Shown: positions 5,291 to 33,881 of the stretch, piece by piece | Layout: each line of letters starts with the position of its first letter | Numbering within the stretch: the first letter of the stretch is position 1 | Source of the DNA: Lactobacillus johnsonii ATCC 33200 | GTDB lineage: Bacteria; Bacillota; Bacilli; Lactobacillales; Lactobacillaceae | Assembly (NCBI RefSeq): GCF_000159355.1 | Contig: NZ_GG670121.1 | Span: 181,754-245,753 of the forward strand | Direction of reading: 5' to 3' | Length of the DNA: 64,000 nucleotides | Notes under the pieces: model-generated | Told to the model about the DNA's origin: nothing | Seen by the model: only the letters and a program-made list of their open reading frames with translations | Database searches by the model: none | Program-made: the position numbers and the translations under genes

Positions 5291-5460
5291 TCCAAAAAAA
5301 CAGGAATCTACTTTCACATGCAGATTCCTGTTACTTTTTTATCACAAAAAGAAAAAGGTCTGCATGTTACTCCATGCAGACCACAATAAATACACAGCCA
5401 GCACAGATACAATCTGAATCTTTCAGGTTGCATCTTGCTTAACAACCTGATTTACTGGCC
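5291..5460 (-). promoter_or_regulatory. Attenuator leader of the TrpXYZ-like operon
   Basis: Read on the minus strand, the leader after the peptide ORF holds several stems. Stem A pairs GGCCAG (5455-5460, the last two sense codons) with CUGGCU (5396-5401). It encloses stem B (CAGGUUG 5443-5449 with CAACCUG 5424-5430) and stem C (CAGAU/AUCUG, 5404-5416), giving a three-way junction. Terminator T1 follows (10-bp stem, 5357-5366 with 5373-5382, then TTTTTCTTTTT). Hairpin T2 follows (9-bp stem, 5301-5309 with 5322-5330), and its seven Ts abut the GGAG of the first structural gene. The 3' arm of T1 (CATGCAGA) can pair instead with TCTGCATG in T2, which would disrupt both. No T-box consensus was found. 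Confidence 0.75.
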
Positions 5461-5502
5461 TTGCCAACGATTATTTTTCATAAACTTAGCTTGTGTATTC
5501 AT
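5452..5502 (-). CDS. Leader peptide MNTQAKFMKNNRWQGQ
   Basis: A 16-codon ORF with a good ribosome site (AAGGAG at 5512-5517, 9 bases before the ATG). It lies about 25 bases downstream of a consensus promoter and 170 bases upstream of the first transporter gene. It has one Trp codon (5464-5466), three codons before the stop. The last two sense codons form one arm of leader stem A, so a ribosome paused at Trp or at the stop would open that stem. This fits a translation-sensing attenuator. A single Trp codon is few for simple starvation sensing, so arrest by the nascent peptide is an alternative. Confidence 0.7.
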   Translation of the reverse strand: MNTQAKFMKNNRWQGQ

Positions 5503-5532
5503 AATTAACTACTCCTTAAAAAATTTAATTAT

Positions 5533-5561
5533 ATTGTAATTGGCTTATATTTTTCTGTCAA
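5533..5561 (-). promoter_or_regulatory. Sigma-A promoter of the leader/TrpXYZ-like operon
   Basis: On the minus strand TTGACA (5556-5561) and TACAAT (5533-5538) are separated by exactly 17 bases. The promoter lies immediately after the glyA stop, so the operon can be expressed independently of glyA. Confidence 0.85.
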
Positions 5562-32919: not shown

Positions 32920-33735
32920 ATATCTCAAACAAAATACTTATCTCCATCTTCGGTTCAAGATTTCTTATCTGCTAGGAAGCGCAGTTCTACGTTGATTGCT
33001 ATTGGCGTCATGCTATGTATTTTCTCACCAATTACTTTATTAATCTTAATCAGACTAACAAGATTAGATATCTTAACTTCATCGATTAATTTTGCAACAG
33101 GAATTGATGTAATTGTTCTAATACTTCTAGTTGCAGCCGCTGTGGCTCTCTTTATTGCAGGAAATCACTGGCTAAAAGTTCACGAAAATTTCGAGTATTA
33201 AGAATGTAATCTTTCTGAAGAAACAAAAGAGCAAGTTCTTAAATTAAGTAAAGAATATGAAAATCAACACCTAGTTCTAAAGATTATTGGCATTACTTTT
33301 TGTATTTTATCTGCTATTCCACTTATGACTGGCTCTTTATTTATTGGTTCTCTTTCAAATAGCCAAATTGATGACCTAATGACTGGTCTTTCAACTGCTA
33401 CGATTTTTCTTATAGGAATTGGTGTCTTTTTCTTAGTCAAAACTAATATTGCTCGTGATAGTTTTAATATTATTTTGCAAATAGAAGACTATACTACTGA
33501 GAAAAAGGCCAGCAAAAAAATAATTGAAAAATATGCCACTATTTATTGGATGACTATTTCTTTTATCTATCTTGCTTATAGTTTCATTAGCAAGAATTGG
33601 AGCCAAAGCTGGATTATTTGGCCACTTGCTGGAATTGCATATGGAATTCTTGAGGCAATCCTTTCTTTTCAATTTCAGAATAATACATCAAAAAAAGAGG
33701 CCTTGTGTTCGGAAAATTATTCTGCTACACTCTAG
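32920..33735 (+). pseudogene. Membrane protein gene with ATA start and in-frame TAA
   Basis: One frame spans about 272 codons. The ribosome site AAAGAGGTGATACC is followed by ATA TCT CAA ACA where an ATG would be expected. GTG 32911 lies inside the ribosome site and is a poor start. The first part (SQTKYLSPSSVQDFLSARKRS, two membrane segments) ends at TAA 33199-33201. The frame then continues ECNLSEETKEQVLKLSKEYE with at least four more membrane segments. Similar proteins commonly neighbour PadR regulators, none of which is present here. The 3' end overlaps the promoter of xpt-pbuX. Confidence 0.75.
33703..33731 (+). promoter_or_regulatory. Promoter of the xpt-pbuX riboswitch transcript
   Basis: TTGTGT (33703-33708) and TACACT (33726-33731), 17 bases apart, lie inside the 3' end of the broken membrane-protein gene. 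They predict an RNA start at the base of the aptamer. Confidence 0.7.
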
Positions 33736-33745
33736 ATATCAAAAT

Positions 33746-33881
33746 ATCTATATATCGTCGTAATAAGGTCGACAGTTTCTACCCGGAACCAATTAATTCT
33801 GGACTATAGGTAATCGATGTCATAAGTAGCACTACAAAGGACTTCTTTTACCCTAATTTACGGGTAGAAGAAGTCTTTTTT
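33746..33881 (+). promoter_or_regulatory. Guanine-class purine riboswitch with terminator
   Basis: P1 pairs ATCTATA (33746-33752) with TATAGGT (33805-33811). P2 is GTCG/CGAC and P3 is CCGGAA/TTCTGG. The invariant GTTTCTACC junction (33775-33783) and GGACTATAG are present. The ACTA in the last junction gives C at the position-74 equivalent, so guanine or hypoxanthine/xanthine rather than adenine is bound. A 14-bp terminator stem (33840-33853 with 33862-33875) and seven Ts follow. GGTAA in the P1 3' side complements TTACC in the terminator, forming the antiterminator. Ligand binding should switch xpt-pbuX off. Confidence 0.93.

Follow-up and report, generated by a model that had tools for sequence, protein, structure and literature searches.

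The locus lies in a window of 64,000 nucleotides from Lactobacillus johnsonii ATCC 33200 (the whole stretch of DNA that was analyzed), and its features are on the minus strand. Three genes make up the transporter operon. The first, trpX (5282-4290), encodes a tryptophan ABC transporter substrate-binding protein, with a score of 460.4 bits against the equivalog NF041285 (cut-off 390). It is followed by a permease gene in the trpY position (4293-3394), which received sub-threshold permease matches only, and by an ATPase gene in the trpZ position (3401-2637), which received ABC ATPase matches below the cut-off; the names of both were taken from gene order. Among the trpX loci listed, the closest named species was Lactobacillus taiwanensis DSM 21401 (94% identical), and a Lactobacillus metagenome-assembled genome (MAG) reached 95%.

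Upstream of trpX, a promoter with 11 of 12 consensus matches (-35 TTGACA at 5561-5556, 17 nt, -10 TACAAT at 5538-5533) precedes a leader with a short upstream open reading frame (uORF). The uORF, MNTQAKFMKNNRWQGQ, runs over 16 codons from an ATG at 5502 to a stop codon at 5454-5452 and is conserved in relatives; its ribosome site, AAGGAG, was read from the sequence at 5517-5512. Codon 13 (5466-5464) is its sole Trp codon and the proposed stall site. We numbered the pairing strands of the leader, from 5' to 3', as 1 (the uORF end), 1', 2, 3, 4, 5, 6, and 7. Strand 1 (GGCCAG, 5460-5455) comprises the last two sense codons of the uORF and is the 5' arm of stem A, whose 3' side, CUGGCU, lies at 5401-5396. 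Strand 1' (CAGGTTG, 5449-5443), the partner of strand 2, is followed by the P1 hairpin (strands 2 and 3, 5439-5400). Within P1, CAACCTG (5430-5424) has alternative partners in 1' and in the hairpin itself, and the strand 3 core, CTGTGCTGGC (5406-5397), is common to P1, stem A, and a proposed antiterminator, 3:4. Next comes terminator 1 (strands 4 and 5, 5382-5357), which is followed by a T-run and shows covariation in relatives. Its 5' arm, strand 4 (5381-5372), can pair with strand 3 at 9 of 10 positions (by inspection, wobbles counted), and its 3' arm, strand 5 (5366-5359), can pair with strand 6, TCTGCATG (5324-5317), to which it is complementary over 8 nt. Strand 6 lies inside terminator 2 (5332-5299), by inspection partly in its apical loop, and the T-run of this second hairpin adjoins the trpX ribosome site, GGAG (5293-5290).

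This layout agrees with a first-pass annotation made from the letters alone, which had described the 17-spaced promoter, the 16-codon ORF with one Trp codon, a stem formed by its last two codons in a three-way junction, two terminator-like hairpins with the second at the ribosome site, and a 3' arm of the first that could pair with the second instead. Indeed, stem A is present in the minimum-energy fold of the window leader, where it closes the three-way junction, and the fold as a whole has a z-score of -7.7, with none of 200 shuffles as good. The annotation was also right that no T-box is present: within the window, nothing matched RF00230 at gathering score. The host genome contains 18 T-box matches, 7 of them above the cut-off, all outside the window.

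An Rfam search, which the first-pass annotation had suggested as a check, placed P1 and terminator 1 in a described context. The segment 5439-5346 matched RF04312, whose gathering score is 59, with only 47.2 bits (E 1.4e-5). The match covers the full model span (positions 1-107), with P1 followed by an intrinsic terminator and trpX on the 3' side. Judged by this match, the window element is a homologue of the trpB motif, although we do not file it as a member of RF04312 given its score. Elsewhere in the order, the scores of loci that have a Trp uORF go up to 86.6 bits (L048). In Narunsky et al. 2024 (PMC11109978), RF04312, also named SRC-39-1, is rated a strong candidate for a riboswitch; its more than 900 members come from Firmicutes and Fusobacteria and most often lie 5' of an uncharacterized ABC transporter. 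According to the available portions of that paper, its authors left open a protein-binding element or a classic attenuator, and already suggested that the right shoulder of P1 contains an antiterminator; these portions are silent on a uORF, stem A, a second terminator, and codon switching. For the literature from 2023 on, this was the only paper we found that treats the motif as a riboswitch. No report of an RF04312 uORF was found in the literature searched, as far as its sources were accessible; preprints, which could describe one, lay outside its scope.

We searched for relatives of the element with RF04312 at several taxonomic levels. Within the genus, 60 of 61 genomes had a match at an E-value of 1, none of the 61 above the cut-off. 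The class search covered 299 genomes, 15 of which had a match at E 0.001. In the order, 236 of 395 genomes, from 59 of 80 genera, had a match at E 0.01, a rough figure in which chance terminator matches are counted and from which strict filters would lose weak matches. The phylum search (299 genomes) yielded five matches at E 0.002, namely the window, L035, and three chance-like ones, and so gave nothing beyond the order. From these searches we assembled 230 loci, made up of 30 genus loci, 15 class loci, 25 and 100 order loci, and 60 hand-picked weaker matches; a few of the order matches listed were left out. Since the weaker matches were picked partly to find other codon classes, the class proportions given below are not a census. 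Close kin are many among the 230 (L117 and L118 are identical over 500 nt, and three further pairs over 220 nt). A k-mer rule left 131 non-redundant leaders, and 128 were used after removing L207 (no fold entry) and L159 and L219 (unclear P1 or terminator limits).

Conservation among relatives, another check proposed in the first-pass annotation, proved extensive. A uORF of 11-29 codons, ending at or just 5' of P1, was found in 214 of the 230 loci (168 of 170 stronger and 46 of 60 weaker matches), starting with ATG in 213 cases and with GTG in one; three loci missed by the automatic filter (L163, L172, and L207) were set by hand. Among 114 non-redundant Trp leaders, 95 had a strict Shine-Dalgarno (SD) sequence and an ATG in frame with the Trp codon, compared with 0.26% of shuffled upstream regions. 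The 16 matches without a uORF (L045, L168, L186, L189, L198, L204, L212, L215, L216, L221, L222, L223, L224, L226, L230, and L232) were dropped before the class counts; by eye, they look like chance matches to terminators located at, or close to, where unrelated genes end. In some of them (L168, L204, L221, L232 and, by a looser scan, L045) there was no more than a spurious ORF. Four further matches outside the 230, L233-L236, likewise appeared by eye to be terminator matches.

We further examined the uORF independently of RF04312, in 80 trpX-like loci found by protein alone, the best 80 of at least 508 relatives. By record titles these are nearly all Lactobacillaceae (one, L283, is titled Faecalicatena), and the sample is therefore uninformative on more distant trpX genes. 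A uORF with Trp near its end was present in 77 of these best 80 loci, only three of which reached the RF04312 cut-off. In 72 of the 80, the Trp uORF lay at most 420 nt from trpX, with its stop codon 161-359 nt upstream of the gene. In five Lactobacillaceae loci (L303, L318, L320, L326, and L338) it lay 422-787 nt upstream, and the interval from leader to trpX may hold a further element there. The remaining three of the best 80 (L298, L333, and L337) had neither a uORF nor a T-box at gathering score. None of the 80 loci, two of which had less than 800 nt of upstream sequence, had a T-box at gathering score.

Classifying the 214 uORFs by their last residues gave 194 Trp, 19 Phe/Tyr, and 1 His leader, and the classes corresponded to the downstream genes. 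The Trp leaders precede TrpX-like genes in 178 cases, trpB in 8, TrpP in one (L188), and family-5 binding proteins in 3; the remaining four have no assigned gene (L034, L038, L048, and L138). The trpB call was made by likeness in the 8 loci, and all three that were tested exceed the TIGR00263 cut-off. The 19 Phe/Tyr leaders precede aroE in 7 cases, TrpX-like genes in 10, and family-3 binding proteins in 2. All five aroE genes tested exceed the TIGR00507 cut-off, and aroE followed none of the 194 Trp leaders. For example, one Phe/Tyr-led operon consists of aroE, DAHP synthase, aroB, aroC, prephenate dehydrogenase, aroA, an unassigned ORF, and prephenate dehydratase, that is, the way to tyrosine and phenylalanine. 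Similarly, the single His leader carries four His codons and precedes a hisZ-like gene (218 bits, below the cut-off of 272), which is followed by hisG, D, C, B, H, A, and F, all above their cut-offs. The fit is less neat where a family-5 binding protein gene follows the Trp leader (assigned by test in L126 and L199 and by likeness in L205); here peptide uptake linked to tryptophan supply is possible, and the uORFs of L199 and L205 end in FWWSTTPSV.

The TrpX-like proteins behind Phe/Tyr leaders stand apart from those behind Trp leaders. In a tree of 102 TrpX-like rows, the nine Phe/Tyr-led rows form one side of a branch with support 100/99. Because these rows share one branch although they come from six taxonomic families, it is the protein subfamily, rather than taxonomy, that the codon class tracks. 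Nine of the ten Phe/Tyr-led proteins were tested and scored 269-384 bits, under the 390-bit TrpX cut-off. Only three Trp-led proteins were tested, of which two exceeded it (460 and 429) and one, from L140, fell just under it (385.5). The leader codons predict that the Phe/Tyr-led clade carries phenylalanine or tyrosine rather than tryptophan. As a separate observation, L257 (G445 C17:66400-74000) has two Phe/Tyr leaders in tandem, L207 and L180, each before a TrpX-like binding protein gene, followed by an ORF in the permease position and then an ATPase gene.

The alternative pairings of the leader were assessed by a covariation test, in which the pairing energy of two strands from the same leader is compared with that of strands from divergent leaders; a mean rank of 0.5 indicates no covariation, and p-values of such comparisons are inflated by relatedness. 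Across the 128 non-redundant leaders, the mean ranks were 0.197 for stem A, 0.110 for 1':2, 0.066 for P1, 0.300 for 3:4, and 0.046 for 4:5. Control pairings stayed near the null value (upstream:3, 0.500; 1:4, 0.524; 2:4, 0.500), with a mild excess for 2:5 (0.418); 1:2, which has bases in common with 1', ranked 0.347. We also aligned 45 of the 47 Trp leaders with codons at -6 and -3 (alignment A1; L171 and L184 were left out). In this alignment, stem A is paired in 92.5% of cells, 1':2 in 96.7%, and terminator 1 in 96.4%, and each has a covariation score above all 500 shuffles; double-sided changes, however, affect only 2 of the 13 pairs of stem A, which does not exceed shuffles. Stem A, whose covariation the first-pass annotation had proposed to check, covaries. 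The antiterminator 3:4 is paired in 85.5% of cells, and 64 of 500 shuffles score as high. The case for it is therefore made by its conservation inside the aligned group and by the between-clade comparison, the one level at which covariation supports it. Inspection of the 45 aligned leaders placed most invariant columns either within the Trp codon or within strands used by one of the alternative folds.

The second terminator is likewise a common feature. In 102 of 128 leaders, terminator 1 is followed at a distance of no more than 160 nt by another terminator-like hairpin with a T-run, compared with 22 of 128 shuffled regions. In these 102 leaders, pairing between strand 5, taken with its T-run, and strand 6 had a mean rank of 0.166, with an energy of -12.3 for matched strands, -8.3 for mismatched, and -7.1 for shuffled ones; the controls ranked 0.503 (4:6), 0.478 (3:6), and 0.537 (5:7). 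The pairing of the two hairpins noticed in the window therefore covaries across leaders. Terminator duplication is a possible cause of 5:6 pairing, and the two terminators are slightly more alike than shuffles (6.14 versus 5.39). The rank of 5:6 nevertheless stays at 0.182 in the 68 leaders with the least likeness between the terminators; 4:7 ranks 0.415. The T-run supplies 465 of the 1200 paired bases of strand 5 in 5:6.

We then folded leaders, up to the loop of terminator 1, while masking a ribosome footprint that started 18 nt 5' of the first base of the A-site codon and reached 11 nt beyond this base. In the 47 Trp (-6,-3) leaders, the number of 3:4 pairs was 5.5-6.8 with the A-site at -6 to -3, as against 3.7-4.9 at -14 to -7, 2.2-2.9 from -2 to the stop codon, and 2.9 without a ribosome. 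In 14 Phe/Tyr leaders, it was 5.6-5.9 at -6 to -3, 1.1-2.3 at -14 to -9, 2.5 at the stop codon, and 0.4 without a ribosome. The averages of these two groups agree with a stall that shifts the fold towards read-through; leaders with other arrangements of codons fitted less well. The 22 leaders with a single Trp at -4, the window's type, showed a weak contrast, with 3.5 pairs at -4, 4.1 at -3, 1.9 at the stop codon, and 2.6 without a ribosome, and up to 6.0 with the ribosome further upstream. Thirteen leaders with Trp at -6 only had 4.7 pairs at -6, 2.5 at the stop codon, and up to 8.0 upstream; nine Trp (-5) leaders had 0.24 at the codon, with no peak there, and up to 8.2 upstream; and five Trp (-9,-6) leaders had 5.4 at -9, 8.3 at -6, 5.4 at the stop codon, and 6.0 without a ribosome. 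For the one His leader, the ribosome position was without effect on 3:4.

The window leader itself, folded without a ribosome, forms 6.1 pairs of stem A and 6.6 of 1':2. With the A-site at -4 (the Trp codon) it has 3.9 pairs of 1':2 and 9.5 of P1, and at -3, 6.8 and 4.1, respectively. With the ribosome at the stop codon, P1 reaches 15.9 pairs and 1':2 falls to 0.0; P1 also forms with the ribosome further upstream (-14 to -8). The opening step of the mechanism proposed below, with 1':2 near the Trp codon and P1 at the stop codon, is thus reproduced for the window, unlike the antiterminator. At every A-site position the antiterminator 3:4 had 0.00-0.02 pairs, and in the window's relative L007 0.00 throughout, with P1 dominant. 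With a ribosome at the Trp codon, the ON fold of the window lies about 11 kcal/mol above the best fold (-23.4 versus -34.3). The antiterminator step of the window is therefore argued from its relatives and not from the folding energies of its own leader. A kinetic test, a crude home-made barrier heuristic with a limit of 7.5 kcal/mol applied to 31 leaders, let the antiterminator win in 4, 3, and 4 of 12 Trp (-6,-3) leaders with the A-site at -6, -4, and -3, and in 0 at -12, 2 at the stop codon, and 2 without a ribosome. By the same crude measure, it won in 3, 1, and 2 of 8 Phe/Tyr leaders at -6, -4, and -3, and in 1 elsewhere. Leaders of the window's type gave 1-2 wins of 11 at every position; L007 won only at -12.

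Taken together, these results suggest that the window leader is very probably a ribosome-mediated transcription attenuator, which would gauge charged tRNA-Trp through the Trp codon near the uORF end and disarm two terminators in series. The first-pass proposal of a peptide-coding Trp attenuator before TrpXYZ is thus supported by the TrpX score of 460 bits, the conserved uORF, the covariation of stem A, and the switching of codons. In the proposed mechanism, with no ribosome near the uORF end, strand 3 would be sequestered by 1':2 and stem A (1:3); a ribosome that has reached the stop codon would cover strands 1 and 1', and strand 3 would be held in P1 (2:3) instead. Either way, terminator 1 (4:5) and terminator 2 (6:7) would form and trpXYZ would be off. 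A ribosome stalled at the Trp codon would block stem A and leave 1' free, such that 1':2 forms, strand 3 pairs with strand 4 as the antiterminator, and strand 5 is released. The released strand 5 could then pair with strand 6, disarming both terminators one after the other, like dominoes, and shortage of tryptophan would turn the operon on. We infer that control acts on transcription, that the operon responds in this direction, that the ribosome stalls, and that the domino step takes place in vivo.

We also lean, by a modest degree, towards a broader reading, by which the trpB riboswitch candidate would be a family of codon-programmable domino attenuators. Stalling on Trp, Phe/Tyr, or His codons would start the exchanges 1':2, 3:4, and 5:6, evolution would retarget the leader to new operons by way of its sensing codons, and these codons would predict the cargo of uncharacterized transporters.

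The published view of the motif would have P1 or a larger fold bind tryptophan or a related ligand directly, with an incidental uORF. Its standing as a strong candidate (Narunsky et al. 2024, PMC11109978) and the strong covariation of P1 and the terminator speak for such a metabolite riboswitch. Yet a uORF is present in 214 of 230 loci and in 77 of the best 80 of at least 508 loci found by protein, its codons go from Trp to Phe/Tyr or His together with the downstream genes while the layout of P1 and terminator stays constant, and by inspection the invariant columns of the 45 aligned leaders fall mostly in the Trp codon or in strands of alternative folds; moreover, the accessible text of PMC11109978 itself leaves a classic attenuator possible. 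We thus favor codon-sensing attenuation because the codons switch with the downstream genes, and hold a metabolite riboswitch to be quite improbable on the comparative evidence. A different objection concerns the output of the leader, which might act on trpX translation or RNA stability rather than on termination, with terminator 2 at the ribosome site as the effective element. The contact between the T-run of terminator 2 and the trpX GGAG would fit this. Against it, the second hairpin carries a T-run in 102 of 128 leaders versus 22 of 128 shuffled regions, and in the best 80 of at least 508 trpX loci the uORF stop lies 161-359 nt (72 loci) or 422-787 nt (5 loci) from trpX, so that uORF and trpX ribosome site stand at no constant distance from each other. 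We consider this alternative unlikely, noting that it overlaps with the attenuator reading in the sensing step, so the two degrees of confidence are not mutually exclusive.

How the ribosome would be held is a further question, since the first-pass annotation had offered ribosome pausing or nascent-peptide sensing of tryptophan. The latter is known from TnaC of E. coli, a leader ORF with a key Trp codon in which the ribosome is the sensor; its operon is one of degradation and responds to excess tryptophan. By analogy, an RWQxQ end would arrest the ribosome on free tryptophan or on another exit-tunnel signal. This possibility is kept mainly because codon reading leaves one regularity unexplained: in 167 of 194 Trp leaders, the residue after the first Trp is Gln. 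That the window has a single Trp codon, as do 73 of the 194 Trp leaders within their last 14 residues, could also point in this direction, and sensing of free tryptophan by TnaC is on record (PMC8429421). However, the Gln codon is CAA in all 167 cases and never CAG, so an RNA constraint or common descent may account for it as well as an effect of the peptide. The residues around the first Trp are varied (14 kinds before it and 7 after), and the Phe/Tyr and His leaders have other peptide ends on the same RNA layout. Furthermore, the leaders described here resemble TnaC in the key Trp codon and the proposed role of the ribosome, but their codon class tracks the genes, which serve uptake and synthesis, not breakdown. 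Pausing at the codon is therefore the part of the earlier proposal that we favor, with nascent-peptide sensing kept as an alternative of low likelihood.

Attenuators of this kind are already known. His leader peptides have been published for Firmicutes, namely the B. cereus group, Peptostreptococcaceae, and Erysipelotrichales (PMC2965389, PMC9413887), and the S. aureus ilv-leu operon has a leucine-rich attenuator peptide (PMC5794164). As in these classical attenuators and that of E. coli his, the leader ORF contains codons of the regulated amino acid, and the terminator and the proposed antiterminator would exclude each other. What sets the present leaders apart is that a single RNA scaffold is used for Trp, Phe/Tyr, and His, that stem A joins the uORF end to the strand of the proposed antiterminator, and that 5:6 pairing links the two terminators. 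As far as our searches of partly accessible literature show, these three features (the shared scaffold with swapped codons, the stem between uORF end and antiterminator, and the coupled terminators) are what is new. Relative to the trpB motif as published, the likeness lies in a P1 hairpin and intrinsic terminator 5' of amino-acid ABC transporters or trpB, whereas the published reading, in the portions available, favors a riboswitch and the window element has a uORF, stem A, and a second terminator. Our analysis proposes a function for RF04312, an orphan so far counted with the strong candidate riboswitches.

The leader would also place leader-peptide attenuation where T-boxes are the expected mechanism. 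In Streptococcus suis, trpXYZ is preceded by a Trp T-box that monitors tRNA-Trp charging (PMC9382623). The same operon is controlled in our case, but the sensing part would be an ORF, and no T-box was found at gathering score in the window or in the best 80 of at least 508 trpX loci. If the coupled terminators work as proposed, they would constitute a serial strand-exchange switch, of which we found no earlier description in the literature searched, so far as its texts were available.

Several minor observations were made along the way. A stretch that resembles the SD and start region of the window uORF (89% over 36 nt) stands upstream of a further ORF in this genome (L002 1501-1534). Elsewhere in the window, on the plus strand, a purine riboswitch (RF00167) lies at 33728-33826 with 55.7 bits (cut-off 37), and 28879-29056 matches the Listeria sRNA family rli28 (RF01492), here in a Lactobacillus, with 53.8 bits (cut-off 45).
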